DNA of 44,983 bases from a virus, in IMG/VR virus record IMGVR_UViG_3300043395_000903, positions 1 through 44,983 of that record; one strand, 5' to 3'. The position numbers were made by a program, and so were the translations under genes. Shown here in pieces: positions 5,005 to 36,284 of this stretch. Each line of letters starts with the position of its first letter. Position 1 is the stretch's first letter. The notes beneath the pieces were generated by a model. It worked only from the letters and a program-made list of their open reading frames with translations, was not told the DNA's origin and made no database searches.

Positions 5005-5937
5005 ATGGCTATTTCACGCGCACAACTACTCAAAGAGTTGCTCCCCGGCCTGAACGCTCTGTTTGGCATGGAGTACGCCCGTTACGGCGAAGAGCACAAG
5101 GAAATCTACGAGACCGAGAAATCGGAGCGTAGTTTCGAAGAAGAAACCAAACTGGCTGGCTTCAGCGCCGCGCCTGTCAAGAACGAAGGCTCTGCCATCG
5201 CTTACGACAACGCGCAAGAGGCGTTCACCGCCCGTTACACCCACGAGACCATCGCTTTGGGTTTCTCGATCACCGAAGAGGCGATCGAAGACAACCTGTA
5301 CGACAGCCTGTCTGCTCGTTACACCAAGGCTCTGGCCCGTGCCATGTCGTACACCAAGCAAGTCAAAGCCGCCGCTGTTCTGAACAACGGCTTCAATGGC
5401 GCTTACGCTGGTGGCGACGGTGTGTCGCTGTTTGGTAACAACTCTGGTGGTACCCGTGTGGGTCACCCGCTGGTCTCTGGCGGTGTGAACTACAACAGCC
5501 CCACCACTGGTGTTGATCTGAACGAAACCGCTTTGGAAAACGCTGTGATCCAGATCGCCGCGTGGACCGATGAACGTGGTCTGCTGATCGCCGCCAAGCC
5601 TCGCAAACTGGTGATTCCTCCCAGCCTGATGTTCGTTGCCAAGCGTCTGCTTGACACTGAACTGCGTGTGCAAACTGCTGACAACGACATCAACGCGTTG
5701 AAGCAGATGGGTGCGATCCCCGAAGGCTATACCGTCAACCACTTCTTGACCGACACCAACGCGTGGTTCCTGACCACCGATGTACCCAACGGTCTGAAGC
5801 ACTTCGAGCGTATGCCTCTGGCTAACTCGATGGACGGCGACTTCGACACCGGCAACGTCCGCTACAAGGCCCGCGAGCGTTATTCGTTCGGCTGGTCTGA
5901 TCCTCTGGGCATCTGGGGTTCTTCCGGATCGTCTTGA
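5005..5937 (+). CDS. Major capsid protein
   Basis: A 310-residue protein with a strong ribosome site (AAGGAG). The build fits an HK97-fold capsid protein of the Mu gpT-like class: a helical N-terminal arm (LLKELLPGLNALFGMEYARY), a charged segment ending in EEETKLAGFSAAPVKNEG, then RYTHETIALGFSITEEAIEDN, a long spine-like helix (SARYTKALARAMSYTKQVKA), a Gly-rich loop at about 130-170, the KPRKLVIPPSLMFVAKRLL strand-helix and a C-terminal RERYSFGWSDPLGIWG strand. It follows scaffold and decoration-like genes and is followed directly by a strong terminator, as is usual for the most highly expressed head gene. Confidence 0.9.
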   Translation: MAISRAQLLKELLPGLNALFGMEYARYGEEHKEIYETEKSERSFEEETKLAGFSAAPVKNEGSAIAYDNAQEAFTARYTHETIALGFSITEEAIEDNLYDSLSARYTKALARAMSYTKQVKAAAVLNNGFNGAYAGGDGVSLFGNNSGGTRVGHPLVSGGVNYNSPTTGVDLNETALENAVIQIAAWTDERGLLIAAKPRKLVIPPSLMFVAKRLLDTELRVQTADNDINALKQMGAIPEGYTVNHFLTDTNAWFLTTDVPNGLKHFERMPLANSMDGDFDTGNVRYKARERYSFGWSDPLGIWGSSGSS

Positions 5938-5995: not shown

Positions 5996-6556
5996 ATGTC
6001 TGAATCTTTTATTCTGCAAAGTTACTTGGAAGATATTTCGGTTTGTGATGACCTTATACAACTGCATCAGGCCAATCCAGAAAAACACATTGGCGAAGCC
6101 GTGCGAGATGGGGTTGGGGTTGTTGATAAAACCATAAAAGACTCAGAAGAATCCTATATTACTGGTGATGTTGGTTTAAGGTACATGGTCCAGTTACAAA
6201 AAGTAATAGACCAGTACATTCAAAAATACCCACAATGCAATATGTATAGCCCTTTTGGGTTATACACTTACCCACAAATTCAAAAATATGCCCCCGGCGG
6301 CGGGTATTTTGAGTGGCACACAGAGCGCACAAACGCAAAAACGATACAGGCCGCTTCTCGTCATTTGGTGTTTATGACGTATTTAAACGACGTAACAGAT
6401 GCAGGCGAAACAGAATTTGATTTACAAAAATTAAAAATTCAGCCCCGTAAAGGATTGACTCTAATTTGGCCCGCTGATTGGACGCACACCCACCGAGGGA
6501 TTGCTTCACCAACCCAAGAAAAGTACGTTGTGACTGGGTGGCTACACTACCTTTAA
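5996..6556 (+). CDS. 2OG-Fe(II) oxygenase, prolyl-4-hydroxylase-like
   Basis: A 186-residue protein with the double-stranded beta-helix metal site: H108-x-E110 (FEWHTE) and H166 (THTHRG), with K176 exactly ten residues after the distal His. That His-to-Lys spacing is the one used in collagen prolyl-4-hydroxylases to bind 2-oxoglutarate. The first acidic ligand is Glu rather than the usual Asp. The family couples oxidation of 2-oxoglutarate to hydroxylation of a protein, nucleic acid or small molecule; the substrate here is unknown. The gene is visibly more A+T-rich than both neighbours, uses many A/T-ending codons, and sits between two near-identical terminators, which points to a later-acquired cargo gene. 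Ribosome site TAGGAGA precedes the ATG. Confidence 0.85.
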   Translation: MSESFILQSYLEDISVCDDLIQLHQANPEKHIGEAVRDGVGVVDKTIKDSEESYITGDVGLRYMVQLQKVIDQYIQKYPQCNMYSPFGLYTYPQIQKYAPGGGYFEWHTERTNAKTIQAASRHLVFMTYLNDVTDAGETEFDLQKLKIQPRKGLTLIWPADWTHTHRGIASPTQEKYVVTGWLHYL

Positions 6557-25470: not shown

Positions 25471-26943
25471 ATGGGTGGTGGTGGAAGCGGTGGGGGCGGA
25501 CCCACACAAACAAGGGTAGAAAATACCAACATCCCCGAATACGCAAAGCCGTATGTCGAGTCGATGCTGGGCGCAACTCAGCAACAGTTGTTCAATACCC
25601 AGCAAGGCCCCGGCGGTGAAACGCAAATCACTGGCATCAAGGGCTACACGCCGTTTGGTGCCGCAGGCGCTGGCATGGGACCCACTGAGCAGGCCGCCGC
25701 GCAAGCGGCTGTGGCAGGGTTTTCGCCTCTCCAACAGCAAGCCCAGCAAGGCATTGCCGGTCTGCAAATGCCCGGACAGTTTGGTGCGGCCACCGAAGCC
25801 GCCATGCTGGGTACACAAGCCGCACTCAACGCAGGCCAGTATCAGCCCGGGTATTTTGGCAACCAGTTCCGCGCCCCCGCCTCTTACCAGCCGGGCCAGT
25901 TCTCCATGGTTCAGGCGCAGGCCCCCGAGTTGACTCAGTATCAGATGGGCGGTCCTGAGCGTGTGGGCACCCAAGCCTTTACTGGTGAGAATGTGGGCCA
26001 GTACATGTCGCCGTACATGCAGGCGGTGGTGGACAAACAGCAACGCGAGGCCGTTCGTCAGGCCGGTATTGCTGGCACGCAACTCGCAGGTCAAGCCACG
26101 CAGTCTGGGGCTTTTGGTGGTTCCCGTTACGGTCTGATGGAGGCCGAGCGTCAACGCAATCTGGCCACTCAGTTGGGCGACATCCAAGCCACGGGTAGTC
26201 AAGCCGCGTTCCAAAACGCGCAACAACAGTTCAACGCACAGCAACAAGCCAATCTGCAAGCCGCCCTTGCCAACCAAGGTGCGGGGCTTACTGTAGGCCA
26301 GCAAAACTTGGGCGCTCTTTTGGGCATCCAACAACTGGGCGCGGGGCAAAACCTCCAAGCGCAACTGGCCAACCAGCAGGCACTGCAAGCCGCCCAACAG
26401 GCGGCCGAGCAGTCTCGCCAATACGGCTACGGTCAAGCCATGACAGCGGCACAGCAACGCGCTCAGTATGGGCTGGCGGGGCAACAAGCCGCCGAGCAGT
26501 CTCGTCAGTTTGGCGCAGGTCTGGGTCTGCAAGGCGCACAAACAGGTCTTCAAGGTGCCTCGCAGTTGGCCGGTATTGGGGCGCAACAACTGGGTGCCCA
26601 GCAAGGCATCCTTGGCTTGCAAGCGCAGACGGGGCAACAGCAACAACAGCAACAGCAAAACGTCATCAACCAGATGCTCCAGAACTATGCGACGACCCAG
26701 CAGTACCCGCAACAGCAGTTGGCGTTCATGAACGCCATGCTCCGTGGCCTGCCGTTGCAGACAACCACCACCCAAGCGTATCAAGCACCGCCCAGTGCCA
26801 TCTCGCAACTGACAGGTCTGGGGTTGGCTGGTGCGGGCGCATACGGGCTGATGAACCGCAAAAAAGGTGGCGCGATCAAAGAGCCAAAGAAAGAAGTTCC
26901 GGCTGGGCTGGCGGACTTGGCGCTCATGAAGATGGGAGTTTGA
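25471..26943 (+). CDS. Gln/Ala/Gly-rich internal virion protein
   Basis: A 490-residue protein starting GGGGSGGGGPTQTRVENTNI. It has the segment IPEYAKPYVESMLGATQQQ, then a long Gln/Ala/Gly-rich part with repeats such as AAEQSRQ (twice), AGIGAQQLGAQQ and a run of eight Gln at about residues 390-397. A probable helical bundle or coiled-coil rod results. The end is basic (NRKKGGAIKEPKK), with the KKGG motif. Such proteins form the inner core or ejection tube in podoviruses. The bases around the start are nearly the same as those of the gene at 23932. Confidence 0.65.
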   Translation: MGGGGSGGGGPTQTRVENTNIPEYAKPYVESMLGATQQQLFNTQQGPGGETQITGIKGYTPFGAAGAGMGPTEQAAAQAAVAGFSPLQQQAQQGIAGLQMPGQFGAATEAAMLGTQAALNAGQYQPGYFGNQFRAPASYQPGQFSMVQAQAPELTQYQMGGPERVGTQAFTGENVGQYMSPYMQAVVDKQQREAVRQAGIAGTQLAGQATQSGAFGGSRYGLMEAERQRNLATQLGDIQATGSQAAFQNAQQQFNAQQQANLQAALANQGAGLTVGQQNLGALLGIQQLGAGQNLQAQLANQQALQAAQQAAEQSRQYGYGQAMTAAQQRAQYGLAGQQAAEQSRQFGAGLGLQGAQTGLQGASQLAGIGAQQLGAQQGILGLQAQTGQQQQQQQQNVINQMLQNYATTQQYPQQQLAFMNAMLRGLPLQTTTTQAYQAPPSAISQLTGLGLAGAGAYGLMNRKKGGAIKEPKKEVPAGLADLALMKMGV

Positions 26944-26944
26944 G

Positions 26945-28636
26945 ATGATCAACGTCAATCAGATCACCGCTCAACTGGCTCGCATGCCTGATCAGGCACT
27001 GCAACGCTACGCTCAGATGAATAAGAGCGACCCGTACATTCTGTCACTGGCTTTGTCCGAGTCCAACCGCCGCAAAGAGATGCGTGCTGGCGCACAGATG
27101 AGCGCACCTGAGCAACCCAAAGTAGTAGACCAAGCCATTGCTGGCATGGGCGGACTGCCCACTTTGCCTGCCGACAACCTGCGCGGCATGGAGCAGACCA
27201 TGGCCGCTGGCGGCATCGTTGCGTTTGACGAGGGCGGTGAGGTGCCTAGGTATCAGTACGGCGGTTTGATGGCTGGTACGGAATACGGCATTCCCGGAAT
27301 GACGCAAAGCACGTTGTTGCAAGATGCGTTGGCAAAACTCAACGAGGGCCGCGAACTTTCTGGTCAGGAAAAAGCCCTGTTGTTTGCTTCAAAGCCGTTT
27401 ACCGCCGCCGCTGATGTGGCGTTGTCTCCTATTAACTTGTTGCGTCGAACTGTGCGCAACCCGCTTGACACCAGCCCTTTGCCGAGTATGACCCCGGTAT
27501 CAGATGCCCGCGCTCGTGCGCTAGGGTTGGATCAGGCGCAGGCCCCCACGCCGTCTGGGCAAAATACCCCTTCTGCGCCTGTTGATCTTGGTCCTGTGCC
27601 GGGCTCAAAAGATACCGATGTCATGGGCGGTATGCCCACCAGCGTTGCGCCGCGTCAAACTCCTCCCTCTGCCGCTCCCGGTGGGCCTCGTCCCCCTGCT
27701 GGCCCTGCCGCTGTTGCGCCGGGTGCCGCCCCTGCCGCTGGCATTCCCGGGCTGATCACGACTGCTGAAGGCATCCAGAAAGCCCTCTCTGACGCACAAA
27801 AAGGCGTCACTCCCGAGGTGCCTGAGAGCCTGCGCCGGGGCATCGAAGACACCCAAAAGACCGAACAAGCGGCTCTTAACCGCTACGTGCAGTCAATCCG
27901 TGACGAGCAAGCCGCCCGTCAACCGGCCATGAAAGACTTTGAGGAACGCCTTAAATTGCGCGAAGAGCGCCTTGGCCGTCAGGAACGTGACCTTGGGCCT
28001 TTGGCTATTTTGCAAGCCGGTATGGCCATTATGGGCGGCTCGTCTCCCTTTGCCGCTGTCAACATCGGTGCTGGAGCACAGGTCGGAATTGATCGTTACA
28101 CCAAAGGTGCCGAGAAACTCGAAGCCGCCCGGGACAAACTCGATGACGCGTTTGGCCGCATCGAGGAAATCCGCCGCAACGAGAGCCGCTTGGACGCCAA
28201 AGAGTTGCGCGAAGCCCTGCTCAAAGCCGAGCAACCGGCGATCGAAGCCAAGAAGACCATGTTCAATGCTTTGCATGAGGACTGGAAACTCAAGCGTGCT
28301 GACGCGTCCAAAGGCGTGGAACTGCTCATGCGTACCCAGATGGATTTGTACAAAGAAGCCGAGCAGACCAAGCGCGCGCAAATTGTTGCCACCGCCAACG
28401 ACCCCTTGGCGCTGTACAGGGCTCTGGGGCAGGGTGACGTTGAGAAGGGCTACCAGCGGTCAAAAGAACTGGCGGCGGCACCCAAGACAGACGCTGATAT
28501 TCGTGAAACATGGGCCAAGAGCGTGGTGCTTCGTAACCAGTACCCAAATGTGGAAGATTTCGTTAGAATAATGAAAGGCCAGCAAGGCGGAGACGCAGGC
28601 CAATTCAAAGTTTTGGGGTCTAGACCGGCCCCGTAA
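26945..28636 (+). CDS. Internal virion protein
   Basis: A 563-residue protein, ATG one base after the previous stop, GGAG six bases upstream. The N-terminal block (ITAQLARMPDQALQRYAQMN, SLALSESNRRKEMRAGAQMS) and the segment AAGGIVAFDEGGEVPRYQYG recur in internal virion proteins of aquatic podoviruses, as I recall. The middle is Pro/Ala-rich (APGGPRPPAGPAAVAPGAAP), probably a flexible linker. The C-terminal half (residues 300-510) is strongly helical, with LLKAEQPAIEAKKTMFNALH. It probably joins the giant protein encoded next in the ejected core. Confidence 0.65.
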   Translation: MINVNQITAQLARMPDQALQRYAQMNKSDPYILSLALSESNRRKEMRAGAQMSAPEQPKVVDQAIAGMGGLPTLPADNLRGMEQTMAAGGIVAFDEGGEVPRYQYGGLMAGTEYGIPGMTQSTLLQDALAKLNEGRELSGQEKALLFASKPFTAAADVALSPINLLRRTVRNPLDTSPLPSMTPVSDARARALGLDQAQAPTPSGQNTPSAPVDLGPVPGSKDTDVMGGMPTSVAPRQTPPSAAPGGPRPPAGPAAVAPGAAPAAGIPGLITTAEGIQKALSDAQKGVTPEVPESLRRGIEDTQKTEQAALNRYVQSIRDEQAARQPAMKDFEERLKLREERLGRQERDLGPLAILQAGMAIMGGSSPFAAVNIGAGAQVGIDRYTKGAEKLEAARDKLDDAFGRIEEIRRNESRLDAKELREALLKAEQPAIEAKKTMFNALHEDWKLKRADASKGVELLMRTQMDLYKEAEQTKRAQIVATANDPLALYRALGQGDVEKGYQRSKELAAAPKTDADIRETWAKSVVLRNQYPNVEDFVRIMKGQQGGDAGQFKVLGSRPAP

Positions 28637-28652: not shown

Positions 28653-31600
28653 ATGCCCATTTACAGCGTACAAGGCCCGGACGGACGGATTTACGATGTG
28701 GAGGGGCCTGCTGGTGCCTCTGAAGCCGACATTATTTCTGCGGTAAAACGACAGATTGCCTCCACCCCCAAGCCCGCTGAACCCACGGTGGGCGGCCAAG
28801 TCAAGGAATTTTTCAAAGGTCTGGCCCCCGGAGCCATCGGATTGGTGGAGAGCGCCGCTACTGGTGCGTCTGCCCTGCTCCCCGAAGAGACTGAAAAGCG
28901 TGCTCGTGAGGGTATTGCTAGTTTGGCCAAAACGGCCAAGGCACCGTTTGCCGCCGCTCCCGGGTACGAAGAAACAATTGGACGCAAGTTTGGCGAAGCC
29001 GCCGGTTCAATTGTTCCGTTTCTTGGCCTTGGGCCTTTGGGCGTGGCAGGTCGCGTTGGCATGGCCGCGTTGGGCACCGGTGCTGGGGCGGGCGAAGCCC
29101 GTACACGGGCAGAACAAGAGGGCGCTACTGCTGAACAACGTGCAACCGCTACCGGCCTTGGCTCCGTGGTGGGTATCTCTGAGATGTTTGCGCCTATGCG
29201 CATACTGGGCCGTATTGATGAGCCGATCAAACAGGGCATCGCCGCCAGCCTCAAACGCGTTGCCCTTGCTGGTGGAGAAGAAGCCGCACAAGAAGCCGCC
29301 GCCCAAGCCGCTCAGAACCTAATTGCCAAGGGCATCTACAAGCCCGAACAGGCGATCATTGAGCAAGTGGGCGAGTCTGCCGCGTACGGCGGCGCTGTTG
29401 GTGCGTTGGCGCAGGGTCTGCTGGACATGGCGCTGGGTCGCCGTGCTCGGGGCACAGGCACGCAAGAAGAAATTGCCAAGGCCAGAGAAGAGGCAGAAGC
29501 CGCCCGTGCGGCTGAGGAAGCCCGCAAAGCCGACCCCGGTTACGCCCGTCAGTTTGTCACTGATTACGAAGCCCGCAAGGCAGAGTTCATCACCGCCAAG
29601 AACGCGCTGAAGAAGCCCGGCAAAGATGCCACCCCCGATGTCTGGGATGCCTACCGGGAACAGAAGAAGGCCGTGGATGACATCCGCGAGTCTTTGACCA
29701 AAGACGCCAAGGAATATAACAAGTTGCGCGGGGTGGTGGCCCCTGAACTTGAAGCAGAAAAAATACAGGCCGAGTTGGCGCGTTTGCGCAGTGAAGCCAA
29801 AGGGCAGACCATACTTCCCGGGTTTGAGTCTGAGACCGTCACGTCGCCTGCCGAACCGCAGGCCGATACTGAGTTTGTGGACTACGCCAAGCAAGTTCGA
29901 GACTTGAAGGCCCGCATGGAGGACTTGGCCTCGCAAGCCCAGCAAACCACCGATTTGGCGCAAAAACGAGAACTTAGCCGCCAGTACGGCATGGCGCAGA
30001 CCGCGCTGACTGAGGCAGAACCGCTGGCCGCACAACAGGTTGCCAAACAAAAGAAAGAAGCCGCAGACCCCACCAAGCGTCTTCAAACCTTGGCAGAACA
30101 GATGCGGCTGGCCGAAGAGAACGGGGACTTAGTTGCACAGGGAAAAATTGCCGACAAACTGGAAGCCTTGGGGGTTACCGACTTGTCTCAAATCCCAGCC
30201 AAGGGAACACCGCCTGTGCAGGGAGAGATTCCTCTGGAGCCGTTTAAGTCCAAGACAATGACCCGGGCCGAGGCGGCGGCGCAGTTTTACAAGCCCGGTG
30301 CCCCCGACATTGAGGCGCAAGAGTCTGCGTTACTGGAAGAGCAACGTCTGGCTGACGAACAAGCCCGTGCCGATGCTTTGCGCGAGATCAAAATTGCGCC
30401 TGAAGCCGTGGCTTTGCAACGGATTGCCCAGCGCCCGGCGGGGCTGACCAACATCACGGCTGGGCTGAACGCCCCTGACACCACACCCAGAGGTTCCACA
30501 GCCATGGCCGTGATGAACCAGCGTCTGCGCCTAGAGTCGGGGTTGAGCGCGGCAAGGGAGAAACTGGCCAAAGCGCAGGATTTATATAAAGCCGACCCCA
30601 CACCGTTTGCCGAGAAACGCCTTGAAGCCGCAACTGCGGAATTGGAAGCCGCTCAAAACGCTTACGACGCCTCGCGCCAAGAGATGCTCCAACAGGAGTT
30701 GATTCCAACCGCAGAAGAAACTACGCCGCCCACAGCCCCGGTAGTACGCAAAGCCCCCAGCGAAGGGTTCAAACTGCGCCCCAGCCAAGGCGCACCCGTT
30801 CGTCCGTCTTCTTACCAAGACCTGTCCACTCGACTGGCCAGTGCGTTGGCGCGTGACGACATTGATCAACGTACTTACGACTTCTTGCGTCGCGCTGAAA
30901 ATGTTTTGCCGTCAATCGACGCTCGCATCGAGACTGCCCGTACGGAACCGGCACAGTTTGGTGAAGGGCCTCTGGCAAAGAAGGGGGCGGCAAAAGACAT
31001 TGCCAGCACCGAAGGGTTCTTGACCCTCCTTGACAAGCAACTTGATCTGATTGAACGCGGTCAAGAGGGCGTGATTACTGGTCGACGTTATCTCGATGAA
31101 GAAGGTGGCCGAGCCAGAGGTTCTGCCGCTGAAGTTGCCGAAGCCAGCAAAGCGTCTGGCCGCGATATTAGCAAGTACCGCACCATGGAGCAAGCGTCGT
31201 TTGCCGCCGCTGAAAGCAAAAAACGCGCTCGCAACATTCCTCCCATGCCCGGTGAGACCGAACGTGTTAACGTCCCCGGCGCGCCTGTGAGTCGTCGTCT
31301 AGAGGCTACACGCGGTACCACCCTGCGCATGCCCGCCAAACCCTTGTCTTTGGCTAGGGAGATGGAGCCGTTGTTGCGTTTGCAAGAACAACTGGCTGGC
31401 CCTGACTTAGCAGAAACTAAACAGGCGGAACTGTTCCCGTCCGAAGCGCGTGGTGTTGTTCGTGCAACAGCCGCTAATTTTGCCAAGTTTTTACAGAGCA
31501 AGGAAGTCCAAGCCCTGCGGGGCATGTTGCCCAAGAGTTTGGCGGATGTGGAACGCCAGCGCAAAGCGTTGCCTGATCTGAAAGCCCGTGTTGCCCAGTT

Positions 31601-34600
31601 GCAAAAACAACTTGACGGCATGGAAGAAGCGGCAAAAGAGTACAAGTCTGCACAGGCGGTGCTCAAGTCAAACAAAGACTTGGCCAACGTCGAGATCGCC
31701 ATATCCGACGTTCAGCGCAGTATCACCAAGAACATCACTGATCGCATCACGCTAGAAAAACAAATCCAAGATTTGGGGTCGGAAATCAAACGGTTGGAAG
31801 ATGCCCGTCGAGACCTGCTGGCACCACAGCCCATCGTGCGCAAGATCAAAGGTCGTGCCACCCCAATCGGTGTGGGCGCCGCTGAATTAGTGGAGAGCCG
31901 CCTGCGTGATCTTGAGACCAACCCTGCGCTGGGCATGCAGTTAACCGGACTTGAAAACCGTGTGACTGATTTGCGTGGTCGAGTGCAAGAACTGCTCAAT
32001 GAGCGCACTTTGATTGATGGCGCGTTGAATCGCCTCAATGACTACGTGGCTGTGGTGCGTGCCCGTAACAAGATTGCCGAACTCCAAGAGCGTGCTCCGT
32101 TTGGTTATGAGATGGATCAAGCCAAAGATGCTCTGCGCGCCGCACAAGCCGCTGTTGGAGCCATCGAGTCCGAGACGGGCAAAACCAAAGCGCAAATCAC
32201 CGCCGAGCAAGCCAAAGAACGCCGCCGTCAAGAAGCCATCGAACGTGCTAGAAAAATTGACGACAGTACCGCGAGAGCCAAAGAACAGCAAAAACGACTG
32301 GAAGCCATGTACTCGCAAGAGGTTACAGGCGAACAAGTTCAGGCCGATCCAGAAGCACAAGCCCGGCGTATGGCCAAAGAGATGGGGGAACCAGACTACA
32401 CGGCCACGGAAAAAGTGGAGGTGATGAAAGACCCCAACAAGGTGCTGGGCGGTTTGTTGGCAGAAGCCACACGCATCCAAAAACAAATGGAGGCGGCCAA
32501 GAAAGCGTCGCTGGCGGCAAGGGATGCCGCGCTCAAACCGCTTCGCGCCAAACTGGATGGGTTGGAGAGCGCGTACAAAGTTACCAAAGACTCCGCCACT
32601 CGTGCCGCGCTGTTGCCCAAGATTGAGAAAGCCACGGCTGACTTACAAGAGGCAGTTGATCGCCAAGCCACCGAGCCTTTGACTTGGAAGGGCATGAAAC
32701 AGCAGATTCGCAGTCTGGCTGTTGCGCTCAACAAATACGAAAACTTGGAAACCAAATTAGGTGTTGGGCGTGTAATTGATGCAAGCATTCCTGAGCGTGC
32801 GTCTCCAACATTCAAACCTAGTAAGGGTGAAAAAGCCGCCGCCGCAAAAGAACGCCAACGCATCGAGGCACAAGAGGCCGCCAAACGTGCCGGGGCACCA
32901 ACCACCAGCGGCGAAGCCCTGACCCGCACCGAAGCCAAGAAAGCCGCCGAGGCCGAGCCCACTGTCTATACTGGCAAAGGCGTTGGCCCGGATGTGGCCA
33001 ACCCGATGGCCAAAGGAAAAGAAGGCGGGGAGCCGGGCGTGTTCCGCACGGCTACAAAAGCGGGCCCCAGCCTGAAAGAACAGACTGTCAAGGACATCAC
33101 GGACAAAGTCATGGCAGACTGGGCCGTTACGCCTGACGTGCAGGTGGTAGCGGATGAGTCGGGGTTGCCAGAAAATATCCGTGCCCAAGCCGAAGCACAG
33201 GGCAAGACTGGTCAGATTCCGGGCTTGTATGACCCCAACACCAAAACCGTGTACCTTGTGGCCAGCGGGTTGAAAGACACCAACGATGTGGTGTTGACGA
33301 TTGCCCACGAGGTGACTGGACACTTTGGCTTGCGTGAGATGCTGGGTGCGGCCTACACCAAAAACATGAACCGTTTGTACGACGGCAACAAGTTGGTGAA
33401 AGAACGTGCTGACGCCAAGATGGAGGAAGACCCCAAACTGAGCCGAGAAGTAGCGGTGGAAGAAGTGCTTGCCGACATGGCCGAGATTGGGGCGACGCCG
33501 CAAGAACGCAACATCTTGCAACGCGTTTATGACTTTGTCCGCCGTTGGTTGGCCAACAAGTTTCCGTCGTTCAACATGGACACGGTTACTGAGAACGAGG
33601 TCAAGCAGATCGTTGCCAACGCTCGTCGTTATGTGATCGAGGGTGAAGGTAAAATTGAAGGGGGCACCGCCAAAACCGACGGCCTTCTGTACCGTACAGC
33701 CAAATACGCATCACCTGAGATGGAAGCCGCTGGCAACGCGCTCGATCCGTTCGTGTCCAAATACCGTGGCAACATGGAAAAGGTCAAAGCCAATGCCACG
33801 GGTTTGGCTTTTGAGACCCAACTGGTTGATCGTTTCGCAGGTTTTGAGCGTCTGGCCAAGTATCTGCCTGAGCACATGGGCACCCAGATGATGTACTACC
33901 TGCGCATGTACGACCAGCGCATGAACATGGTGTCACAAGCCGTGGCCGCTGGTGCCCCCAGCATCGTTGAGAAAAAACGGCCCGACGGCAAAACCGAGCG
34001 CATCATCGAGGCCAAAGAGGGCCCGAACATCAAGAATGTGGTCGAGATTTTAAAAGACGCCAACCCCATGGTCGGTAACGCCGAGGCCGTCAACCGCTTG
34101 TTCACCGCCTACATGGCCGCAATTCGCGCCGATAACAAAGGTTTTGAATCGCTGAACTTTGGCGAAGACGTGACCCGCGCCGATTTGGACAAGGCTCTGA
34201 GCGTTGTTGAAAACAACAAAGAACTCAAGGCCATATTCGACAAGGCACGCGGCGAATACAACGAGTACAACCGCAACCTGATCAAGTTCTTGGTTGAAAC
34301 CGGTGCGCTTTCCAAGAAAGTGGCCGAGCGCCTGACCGCTGAAAACGACTACATCCCGTTCTACCGCGAACAGAACGGCGTGGCCCAGTTGCTGATTGGC
34401 GGCGAAGCCCCGATCCGTATTGGTTCGATCAAAGAACAGCCCTACCTGAAAGAGTTGGTTGGCGGTGACCAGCCGATTCTGGATTTCCTGACCAGTTCGG
34501 TGCAGAACACCAACATGCTCGTGGATATGGGCATGCGCAACCTTGCAACCAAGAACGCTGTGTTTGAGTTGATCAACCTCAACGCCGCCAAACTGGTCAA

Positions 34601-36284
34601 GGGCACACCTTCTGGCAAAGACGTGGTCAAGTTCAAGATCGACGGTGACGACCGCTATGCCGTGTTGGCCACGGAGACTGTCACAATTGGTAACAAGACG
34701 TTTGACACCGGGGTGCCTGCTGACATTCTGGTCAAGGGCATGGAGGGTATCCCCACCCAAATGCCGTTTATTTTCCGTGCCATGGCCATGCCCGCCCAGT
34801 TGTTGCGCAAGGGTGTGACGCTCTCGCCCCTGTACATGGCACGCCAGTTGTTCCGCGACTCGTTGGCCGCACCTATTCTGTCGGGGGCTAACTTCACCCC
34901 TGTGCTTGGCGCTCTGCGCCAGATCGGTGCTCCGGCTGGCAAAACACTTGAGCGTCGCGGCATCACCGGCGGTCAGCAATTCAAAGGCACGTCTGAGGAC
35001 CTGTCCATGATTTTGCGTGAGGTGGCCTCTGGTAAGCCGGGCTGGATGACGGCACTGGGTAAATTTGAAGCGGCGGCAATGGAGGCTGATGCGCTGACCC
35101 GCCGCGCCCAGTACAACAGTTACATCAACCAAGGGTTGTCCGAGATGGAAGCCACACTGATGTCACTAGAGTCCATGAACTTCAACAAGCGCGGCGCGTC
35201 ACCCAGCATCCATATTGCCAACGCTTTGATCCCGTTCTTCAACGCCCAGATTCAGGGTCTGAACGTGCTGTACAAGGCTATGTTTGGCAAGATGCCTTTC
35301 AACGACAAACTGAAGATTCGCCAAAAGATGCTCCAGCGCGGGGGCATGATGGCCGTTGCATCCATGGTTTATGCCATGATGATGGAGGACGACGAAGCGT
35401 ACCAAAACGCCGAGCCGGATCAGAAGTATGGCAACTGGTTTGTGCGCCTACCCGGTGTCGATGAGCCTGTTCGCGTGCCGATTCCGTTTGAAGTTGGTTA
35501 CATCTTCAAGGCTTTGCCCGAGGCACTTGTCAATTCGCTCAACAGCGAACATGGCGGTGAAGAGGCAATCAAGGCGTTTAAGCAGATCATTCTCCAAACC
35601 ATTCCCGGCGGCTCCAGTTACGGCATTCCGCAAGCCTACAAACCCGCTATCGAGGTGGGGCTCGGCAAGTCGTTCTACACAGGGCGCGACATTTTGTCAG
35701 CACGCGAGAAAAACTTGTTACCCGAAGATCAGTTCCGCGCCAACACCACGGAGATAGCCAAGGCTTTTGGCAAACTGACTGGTGCGTCCCCAATCTTGGT
35801 TGAACAGTTTGTCAAAGGGTACACGGGCACCATGGGTCTGGCCTTCCTGCAAGCGCTCAGTATGGGTGTGCCCACTGGCGAATCACCTGAGAAAGCCGTC
35901 AAACGCCTGTCTGAGTACCCAGTTATTGGCGGTGCGTTCCAACCCAACGACGCTGGGGGCATCATCAACAGCGTGTACGAGCGCATGAACGATGCTGAGA
36001 AAGTTGCCAACACCTACAAAGATATGGTTAAAGACGGCCGCACAGCCGAGGCCGAGGCGCTACTCCAGCGCCGTGGCAACGACTTCTTCCAAGCCGAAAT
36101 TGCCAAAGAGTTCAAGGCCAACATGAACCAACTGAGTCAGGCCGAGCGCGCAATCCAAGCGTCAGACATGACGGGCGAAGAGAAGCGCAAGCAGTTGGAC
36201 GAGATCAGGAAACTGAAGATTGCTGTGGCAAAAGAGATCAGGGACGTGGCAGACAAGACCGTGAGTTTGTCGTTCTCTTTGTGA
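28653..36284 (+). CDS. Giant internal virion / ejection protein with metallopeptidase motif
   Basis: A 2543-residue protein. The N-terminus (GPDGRIYDVEGPAGASEADI) is a short beta module seen at the start of other phage ejection proteins. Hydrophobic Gly/Ala segments at about 55-75 and 118-147 could enter a membrane. Residues 260-1480 are mostly coiled coil. A zincin motif follows: H1552-E1553-V-T-G-H1557, with E1604 in VAVEEVLADMAEIG as likely third ligand. The last 860 residues (YASPEMEAAGNALDPFVSKY, SPLYMARQLFRDSLAAPILS, IHIANALIPFFNAQIQGLN) resemble the large polyvalent-protein domain called LPD38. Proteins of this size enter the host with the DNA. The protease may process the virion core or cut host cell-wall or membrane proteins. 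No polymerase motif was found. Confidence 0.78.
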   Translation: MPIYSVQGPDGRIYDVEGPAGASEADIISAVKRQIASTPKPAEPTVGGQVKEFFKGLAPGAIGLVESAATGASALLPEETEKRAREGIASLAKTAKAPFAAAPGYEETIGRKFGEAAGSIVPFLGLGPLGVAGRVGMAALGTGAGAGEARTRAEQEGATAEQRATATGLGSVVGISEMFAPMRILGRIDEPIKQGIAASLKRVALAGGEEAAQEAAAQAAQNLIAKGIYKPEQAIIEQVGESAAYGGAVGALAQGLLDMALGRRARGTGTQEEIAKAREEAEAARAAEEARKADPGYARQFVTDYEARKAEFITAKNALKKPGKDATPDVWDAYREQKKAVDDIRESLTKDAKEYNKLRGVVAPELEAEKIQAELARLRSEAKGQTILPGFESETVTSPAEPQADTEFVDYAKQVRDLKARMEDLASQAQQTTDLAQKRELSRQYGMAQTALTEAEPLAAQQVAKQKKEAADPTKRLQTLAEQMRLAEENGDLVAQGKIADKLEALGVTDLSQIPAKGTPPVQGEIPLEPFKSKTMTRAEAAAQFYKPGAPDIEAQESALLEEQRLADEQARADALREIKIAPEAVALQRIAQRPAGLTNITAGLNAPDTTPRGSTAMAVMNQRLRLESGLSAAREKLAKAQDLYKADPTPFAEKRLEAATAELEAAQNAYDASRQEMLQQELIPTAEETTPPTAPVVRKAPSEGFKLRPSQGAPVRPSSYQDLSTRLASALARDDIDQRTYDFLRRAENVLPSIDARIETARTEPAQFGEGPLAKKGAAKDIASTEGFLTLLDKQLDLIERGQEGVITGRRYLDEEGGRARGSAAEVAEASKASGRDISKYRTMEQASFAAAESKKRARNIPPMPGETERVNVPGAPVSRRLEATRGTTLRMPAKPLSLAREMEPLLRLQEQLAGPDLAETKQAELFPSEARGVVRATAANFAKFLQSKEVQALRGMLPKSLADVERQRKALPDLKARVAQLQKQLDGMEEAAKEYKSAQAVLKSNKDLANVEIAISDVQRSITKNITDRITLEKQIQDLGSEIKRLEDARRDLLAPQPIVRKIKGRATPIGVGAAELVESRLRDLETNPALGMQLTGLENRVTDLRGRVQELLNERTLIDGALNRLNDYVAVVRARNKIAELQERAPFGYEMDQAKDALRAAQAAVGAIESETGKTKAQITAEQAKERRRQEAIERARKIDDSTARAKEQQKRLEAMYSQEVTGEQVQADPEAQARRMAKEMGEPDYTATEKVEVMKDPNKVLGGLLAEATRIQKQMEAAKKASLAARDAALKPLRAKLDGLESAYKVTKDSATRAALLPKIEKATADLQEAVDRQATEPLTWKGMKQQIRSLAVALNKYENLETKLGVGRVIDASIPERASPTFKPSKGEKAAAAKERQRIEAQEAAKRAGAPTTSGEALTRTEAKKAAEAEPTVYTGKGVGPDVANPMAKGKEGGEPGVFRTATKAGPSLKEQTVKDITDKVMADWAVTPDVQVVADESGLPENIRAQAEAQGKTGQIPGLYDPNTKTVYLVASGLKDTNDVVLTIAHEVTGHFGLREMLGAAYTKNMNRLYDGNKLVKERADAKMEEDPKLSREVAVEEVLADMAEIGATPQERNILQRVYDFVRRWLANKFPSFNMDTVTENEVKQIVANARRYVIEGEGKIEGGTAKTDGLLYRTAKYASPEMEAAGNALDPFVSKYRGNMEKVKANATGLAFETQLVDRFAGFERLAKYLPEHMGTQMMYYLRMYDQRMNMVSQAVAAGAPSIVEKKRPDGKTERIIEAKEGPNIKNVVEILKDANPMVGNAEAVNRLFTAYMAAIRADNKGFESLNFGEDVTRADLDKALSVVENNKELKAIFDKARGEYNEYNRNLIKFLVETGALSKKVAERLTAENDYIPFYREQNGVAQLLIGGEAPIRIGSIKEQPYLKELVGGDQPILDFLTSSVQNTNMLVDMGMRNLATKNAVFELINLNAAKLVKGTPSGKDVVKFKIDGDDRYAVLATETVTIGNKTFDTGVPADILVKGMEGIPTQMPFIFRAMAMPAQLLRKGVTLSPLYMARQLFRDSLAAPILSGANFTPVLGALRQIGAPAGKTLERRGITGGQQFKGTSEDLSMILREVASGKPGWMTALGKFEAAAMEADALTRRAQYNSYINQGLSEMEATLMSLESMNFNKRGASPSIHIANALIPFFNAQIQGLNVLYKAMFGKMPFNDKLKIRQKMLQRGGMMAVASMVYAMMMEDDEAYQNAEPDQKYGNWFVRLPGVDEPVRVPIPFEVGYIFKALPEALVNSLNSEHGGEEAIKAFKQIILQTIPGGSSYGIPQAYKPAIEVGLGKSFYTGRDILSAREKNLLPEDQFRANTTEIAKAFGKLTGASPILVEQFVKGYTGTMGLAFLQALSMGVPTGESPEKAVKRLSEYPVIGGAFQPNDAGGIINSVYERMNDAEKVANTYKDMVKDGRTAEAEALLQRRGNDFFQAEIAKEFKANMNQLSQAERAIQASDMTGEEKRKQLDEIRKLKIAVAKEIRDVADKTVSLSFSL

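Follow-up and report, generated by a model that had tools for sequence, protein, structure and literature searches.

The question raised by this locus is whether the motif HEVTGH, found near the middle of a very large phage protein, marks a peptidase that enters the host with the phage DNA, and what such a peptidase would act upon. The window, meaning the whole stretch of DNA analysed, is a complete viral record of 44,983 bases, which may still represent part of a phage genome. Genes for portal, capsid, tail-fibre, GH108 endolysin and replication proteins were identified on it, and the window ORFs scanned gave no match to a tape measure or tail tube. The capsid protein (5005-5937) was found to match families of both the major head protein and the head maturation protease; the protein encoded next to it (5996-6556) matched PHROG_61 (2OG-Fe(II) oxygenase) strongly and endonuclease-type families more weakly. 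An ORF check identified 28653..36284 (+) as one open frame with an ATG start, encoding a polyvalent or ejection-type protein of 2543 amino acids and taking up 17% of the window, in keeping with the first-pass annotation of this DNA, in which a protein of that length and position had been estimated at about one sixth of the window.

The N-terminal part of this protein (residues 41-270; 28773..29462, +) is Gly/Ala-rich, was passed over in the first-pass annotation and was delimited by composition and a PHROG match, with residues 95-487 matching PHROG_2206 (N4-type virion RNA polymerase) at an E value of 1.4e-5. It is followed by a variable Ala/Glu-rich region (residues 271-1450; 29463..33002, +), defined by its composition, being high in Ala, Glu, Arg and Gln, and by gappy, low identity to close relatives, in which no recognised enzyme domain was found. 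Its earlier description as a coiled-coil section of 1200 residues was not borne out in that form, as these residues hold no stretch of 60 free of Pro and Gly and an SMC-like match is weak and confined to 950-1055. Four alike short stretches of this region (QTILPGFE, QGEIPLEP, QQELIPTA and QAELFPSE) resemble sliding-clamp binding peptides (QxxLF), though they may be linkers. The C-terminal module (residues 1691-2543; 33723..36281, +) is conserved and mostly helical according to alignment and model (pLDDT 70), with no fold match for it in the PDB, and contains LPD38 (PF18857) at residues 2247-2425 (35391..35927, +; Pfam E value of 1.7e-28), so that the helical, LPD38-like end of about 860 residues proposed at first pass was borne out. 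The 2543-residue protein was matched by 140 phage records, among the matches listed mostly over residues 1691-2543.

The gene for this giant protein is the last in a row of conserved ORFs, the position of an ejection cassette. Directly 5’ of it lies an ORF for a 563-residue protein (26945..28636, +), a probable partner ejection protein with homologues at two other loci (L008, L009) and no Pfam or PHROG match, preceded by an ORF for a 490-residue protein (25471..26943, +), a putative member of the same cassette with homologues at L007-L009, L014 and L018. At locus L012, a single ORF of 970 residues 5’ of the giant gene matches both the 381- and 490-residue proteins of the window. In a Pelagibacter phage, a relative of the LPD38 module comes after the gene for an internal virion protein, and CsCl-purified virions of podovirus JC1 have yielded 51 unique peptides of its LPD38-bearing gp69 (PMC9144972). 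Given the gene position, an N4-like layout and the presence of JC1 gp69 in virions, it is highly likely, by analogy, that the giant protein is packed in the particle and ejected. The overall layout, in which an N-terminal part, variable region, peptidase and LPD38 module stand at the end of a cassette, fits an ejected polyvalent protein. The first-pass proposal of a large protein of ejection type, with a domain resembling a metallopeptidase at its centre, was upheld, its ejection being deduced from layout and gene position.

The metallopeptidase-like domain (approximately residues 1470-1660; 33060..33632, +) was delimited with alignments, an AlphaFold model and Foldseek. It contains HEVTGH at residues 1552-1557 (33306..33323, +), of which H1552 and H1557 are putative metal ligands and E1553 the putative catalytic base, and EEVLAD, of which E1603-E1604 (33459..33464, +) supply a probable third ligand, E1604, on the grounds of conservation and analogy with dipeptidyl peptidase III (DPP III). 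The first-pass annotation had named HEVTGH a zincin motif; its sequence and position were correct, and its spacing is that of H-E-x-x-x-H, with the second His at i+5, a rarer variant than the classical zincin motif HExxH, which a motif search did not find anywhere in the 2543 residues.

H1552, E1553 and H1557 were found to be invariant across 31 non-redundant domains, and E1604 was kept in all 30 of those having that column, with E1603 present in 25 of the 31, A1607 in 29 and E1611 in 26. As these four residues are conserved across divergent relatives, the assignment of E1604 as the likely third ligand, made at first pass, holds. Among 302 matches to the domain, 289 possess HExxxH, two possess HExxH and 11 possess neither, ten of these being partial matches that end short of the active site, while the remaining one (L244) is catalytically dead (RESVAN). 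The two HExxH members are the protein of Pseudomonas phage Rollin (L091, HEMGH) and a Chromobacterium plasmid protein (L085), the first copy of whose domain reads HELLGH and the second HEMFH. Tandem double domains occur in L085, L076, L026 and L081. The dead copy of L244 lies at residues 1981-2168 of a long ORF within a domain that is otherwise well conserved, and an HExxH motif stands apart from it at 1329 of the same protein. As the scans were partly selected on HE..H, most loci having been found with patterns that include HE, loci obtained with plain tblastn were used as a check without motif selection, and these again showed HExxxH, save for HEMGH of Rollin and HEMFH of the Chromobacterium plasmid. 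Close homologues were also inspected for loss of the motif and were found to retain HE-x-x-G-H and the second Glu, which leaves the reading standing. Judged from sequence, HEVTGH is more than a chance occurrence, as hundreds of loci carry the domain with H, E and H kept.

A search with a four-sequence alignment identified the domain in 80 viral loci, with Vibrio, Bacteroides, Escherichia, Achromobacter, Pseudomonas and Aeromonas among the hosts of the phages that bear it, and it is also encoded on plasmids, in polyvalent proteins, and on contigs of bacterial genomes. Escherichia phages Pondi and PTXU04 are among those that match it. Single-sequence scans using the domain of the window or that of L091 returned no viral contigs. 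No model covering the domain was found in Pfam, NCBIfam or PADLOC, and DUF6647 was rejected as its family, the match falling below the cut-off of that model. Comparison with four close relatives showed 52-60% identity for residues 1501-1600, against 10-35%, with gaps, for most 100-residue blocks of residues 1-1450; blocks of the C-terminal module were mostly at 23-66%, decreasing to 8-16% at the extreme end. In three of these four comparisons, conservation peaked at the peptidase centre.

The AlphaFold model of the domain, built from an input of 28 sequences, has a core pLDDT of approximately 90 and shows a helix, a strand, a helix, two strands, the active-site helix (94-109 in model numbering), further helices and the helix bearing the Glu (149-163). 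With strand order taken from this predicted model, the HEXXXH helix comes after a three-stranded sheet, and the helices and strands of the model succeed one another in a zincin-like way. No solved structure matched at an E value of 0.001, the best match having an E value of 0.24 and a probability of 0.20. A Foldseek search against predicted viral structures gave 13 matches, several of which are named as polyvalent, helicase or restriction proteins, with an SprT-like protein among them (E value of 0.14). The domain very probably adopts a metal-binding peptidase fold.

Passages of Iyer et al. 2017 (PMC5512222) describe metallopeptidases as the domain met most often in the polyvalent proteins of phages and plasmids, already include an HEXXXH set among the zincin-like members, and propose self-processing or host targets for these enzymes generally. 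With that set, as described in those passages, the domain of the window shares its motif spacing, an N-terminal helix, three strands and C-terminal helices with a Glu, and it likewise lies inside a large protein with an LPD domain, as do the members of the set in phages and plasmids. The motif helix following the sheet, E1604 on a later helix and the LPD-bearing large protein were all found here, and the protein is, as far as its sequence indicates, a further member of the HEXXXH polyvalent metallopeptidases described in 2017. LPD38 is the polyvalent domain recognised in the protein of the window, and a relative carries ddrB-ParB and a methylase.

A likeness in the metal site was also noted with DPP III (family M49), where the zinc site is unchanged whether the motif is HEXXGH or HEISH and the second Glu of EECKAD serves as ligand (PMC5805324). 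The protein of the window likewise has HEXXGH (HEVTGH) and EExxA[DE] (EEVLAD), and the toggle between hexapeptide and pentapeptide is common to both families. Homology with M49 was looked for and not found, hhalign against one M49 protein giving a probability of 0.3% and no M49 chain being returned by the profile search or among the best 50 of 321 fold matches, which makes this a likeness of the metal site and not membership.

Among the proteins sampled, the domain occupies a fixed slot between the variable N-terminal part and the conserved helical C-terminal module. This slot holds HExxxH in L002-L004, L092 and L141, a different domain of HExxHxxD...E type (HEMAHYLD) in BA3-type phages (L282, L285) and an HEAVH motif, a candidate metal site, 5’ of the same LPD38 module in MinM2 (L284); it is empty in L144, L145 and L283, the short versions (Pelagibacter, Bacillus) having no such domain. 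That peptidases of different kinds are swapped at this one position suggests a function linked to it. Residues 1283-1533 of an Endozoicomonas LPD38 protein (L087) match NCBIfam CLCA_X with an E value of 2e-43, below the cut-off.

The closest layout is that of the N4 virion RNA polymerase (gp50), in which an HExxH subdomain, C1, is followed by C2, a helical part of 110 kDa, at the end of the protein; this C-terminal domain inhibits the polymerase, and the protein has been purified and imaged full length (PMC12633501). Both are the last and largest ejection protein, with a zincin-like domain followed by a helical C-terminal part of roughly 100 kDa, and their N-terminal regions are similar by PHROG_2206, whereas the N4 protein includes an RNA polymerase and its motif is HExxH (HELVH 2228). 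Homology of C1 and C2 with the peptidase and C-terminal module was rejected as not significant, and a single-sequence comparison of the N-terminal part with gp50 was also not significant. A passage of Iyer et al. 2017 gives the N4 polymerase as packaged uncut (PMC5512222); this, together with its isolation at full length, argues against obligatory self-cleavage. A similarity in spirit to DarB-type defence proteins had been suggested at first pass, and DarB-like proteins are likewise giant virion proteins, with JC1 gp69 also bearing LPD38. The 2543-residue protein is not a DarB homologue, however: it was found to contain no methylase, helicase or ParB-like cargo, whereas P1 DarB is without an HExxxH domain. 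Neither P1 DarB nor DdrB, which has HELGHH, gave a significant domain match.

Alignment A3 showed a short motif recurring on both sides of the domain, within poorly conserved linkers. Its pattern, [LMVIRKQF][FY][RS], was picked by eye after the data had been seen. In the protein of the window it corresponds to VFRT upstream (residues 1463-1466; 33039..33050, +), a candidate cleavage or docking site, and LYRT downstream (residues 1679-1682; 33687..33698, +), both enriched in homologue flanks. Of 39 flanks on each side, 20 upstream and 21 downstream contained the motif, compared with shuffle means of 6.2 and 8.7 and 19% of control windows, with about half of the families lacking it on a given side. 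Loci outside the motif definition gave P values of 0.0006 (upstream) and 0.009 (downstream), and a third set from the last two scans gave 0.0002 and 0.0006, all of which serve as guides only, given a pattern defined by eye and relatives that are not fully independent. Agreement of R-type or S-type motif between the two flanks of one protein was not significant (12 to 4, p 0.13). V1463-F1464 is modelled by AlphaFold as a strand, and since it is modelled as belonging to the fold the upstream motif may dock instead of being cut. The motif may be a cut site, a docking element or a general linker feature; it is doubtful that it is the peptidase’s own cleavage site, at which such giants would cut themselves on entry into an N-terminal part, a protease and an LPD38 module, with the protease slot interchangeable. 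The HExxxH/HExxH toggle, slot exchange and flank motif were not found in passages of Iyer et al. 2017 and, as against those passages, are new observations (PMC5512222).

Taken as a whole, the explanation tentatively preferred, at a little short of even probability, is that of an ejected polyvalent giant with an HExxxH peptidase that processes its own chain or sister ejection proteins. The phage would be tailed and of podovirus type, and the giant, as its largest ejection protein, would be stored in the head and pass into the host along with the DNA. Residues of approximately 1470-1660 would form a zinc-dependent peptidase in which H1552, H1557 and E1604 hold the metal and E1553 activates water, the extra residue of the active-site helix being tolerated as in DPP III, with two relatives having the ordinary HExxH; zinc binding, proteolysis, packaging, ejection and target are what we infer for this protein. 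During or after ejection the giant would cleave itself or its sister ejection proteins by limited proteolysis, with cuts in the linkers that flank the domain, close to VFRT and LYRT, allowing the N-terminal part, peptidase and LPD38 module to separate. That such processing is the main role is plausible, at a somewhat lower confidence again. We know of no peptidase activity for any member of the HExxxH family, and the homologue L244, whose catalytic residues are lost, counts against this explanation.

A less likely explanation is an effector role for the domain: once ejected, it would be an active protease cleaving proteins of the host, for instance a factor involved in defence or in the envelope, and would not process its own chain. 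This is one of the options offered in passages of Iyer et al. 2017 (PMC5512222); the domain is found in plasmid-borne polyvalent proteins too, and no further enzyme domain was recognised in the protein, so that the peptidase may be its sole payload. Against a single host target, the fixed slot by the C-terminal module, with other peptidase types substituted there, fits processing better, and the domain stays conserved in phages whose hosts lie as far apart as Bacteroides and Aeromonas. Slightly more improbable is a metal site kept for folding or interaction without essential proteolysis, as one bead in a protein built like beads on a string, which C1 of N4 may also be. The intact purification of the N4 polymerase, with HExxH-C1 and C2 in its polymerase-inhibiting C-terminal domain (PMC12633501), and the existence of L244 agree with this; yet the general base E1553, which mere metal binding would not require, does not vary across the non-redundant domains, and its equivalent is lost in one of approximately 290 domains, most of these loci having been found with patterns that include HE. 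Cutting of the giant or other head proteins inside the procapsid before DNA packaging is very unlikely. It has a precedent in P1 DdrB, for which a passage of Iyer et al. 2017 gives a C-terminal metallopeptidase domain and processing before packaging (PMC5512222), but the match of the capsid protein of the window to head-maturation-protease families indicates that a separate maturation protease may exist, and the LPD38 protein of JC1 is present in virions (PMC9144972), although it may have been cut.

No substrate was found to have been reported for polyvalent metallopeptidases of the HExxxH kind, and the protein of the window offers a clean case, with the peptidase as its sole recognised enzyme and E1553 as an obvious residue to test, while two specific candidate sites, VFRT and LYRT, render self-processing directly testable. 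Together with DPP III, the HExxxH/HExxH toggle within one family makes two natural cases in which a metal site tolerates an extra residue, and the HExxxH domain is very widespread.
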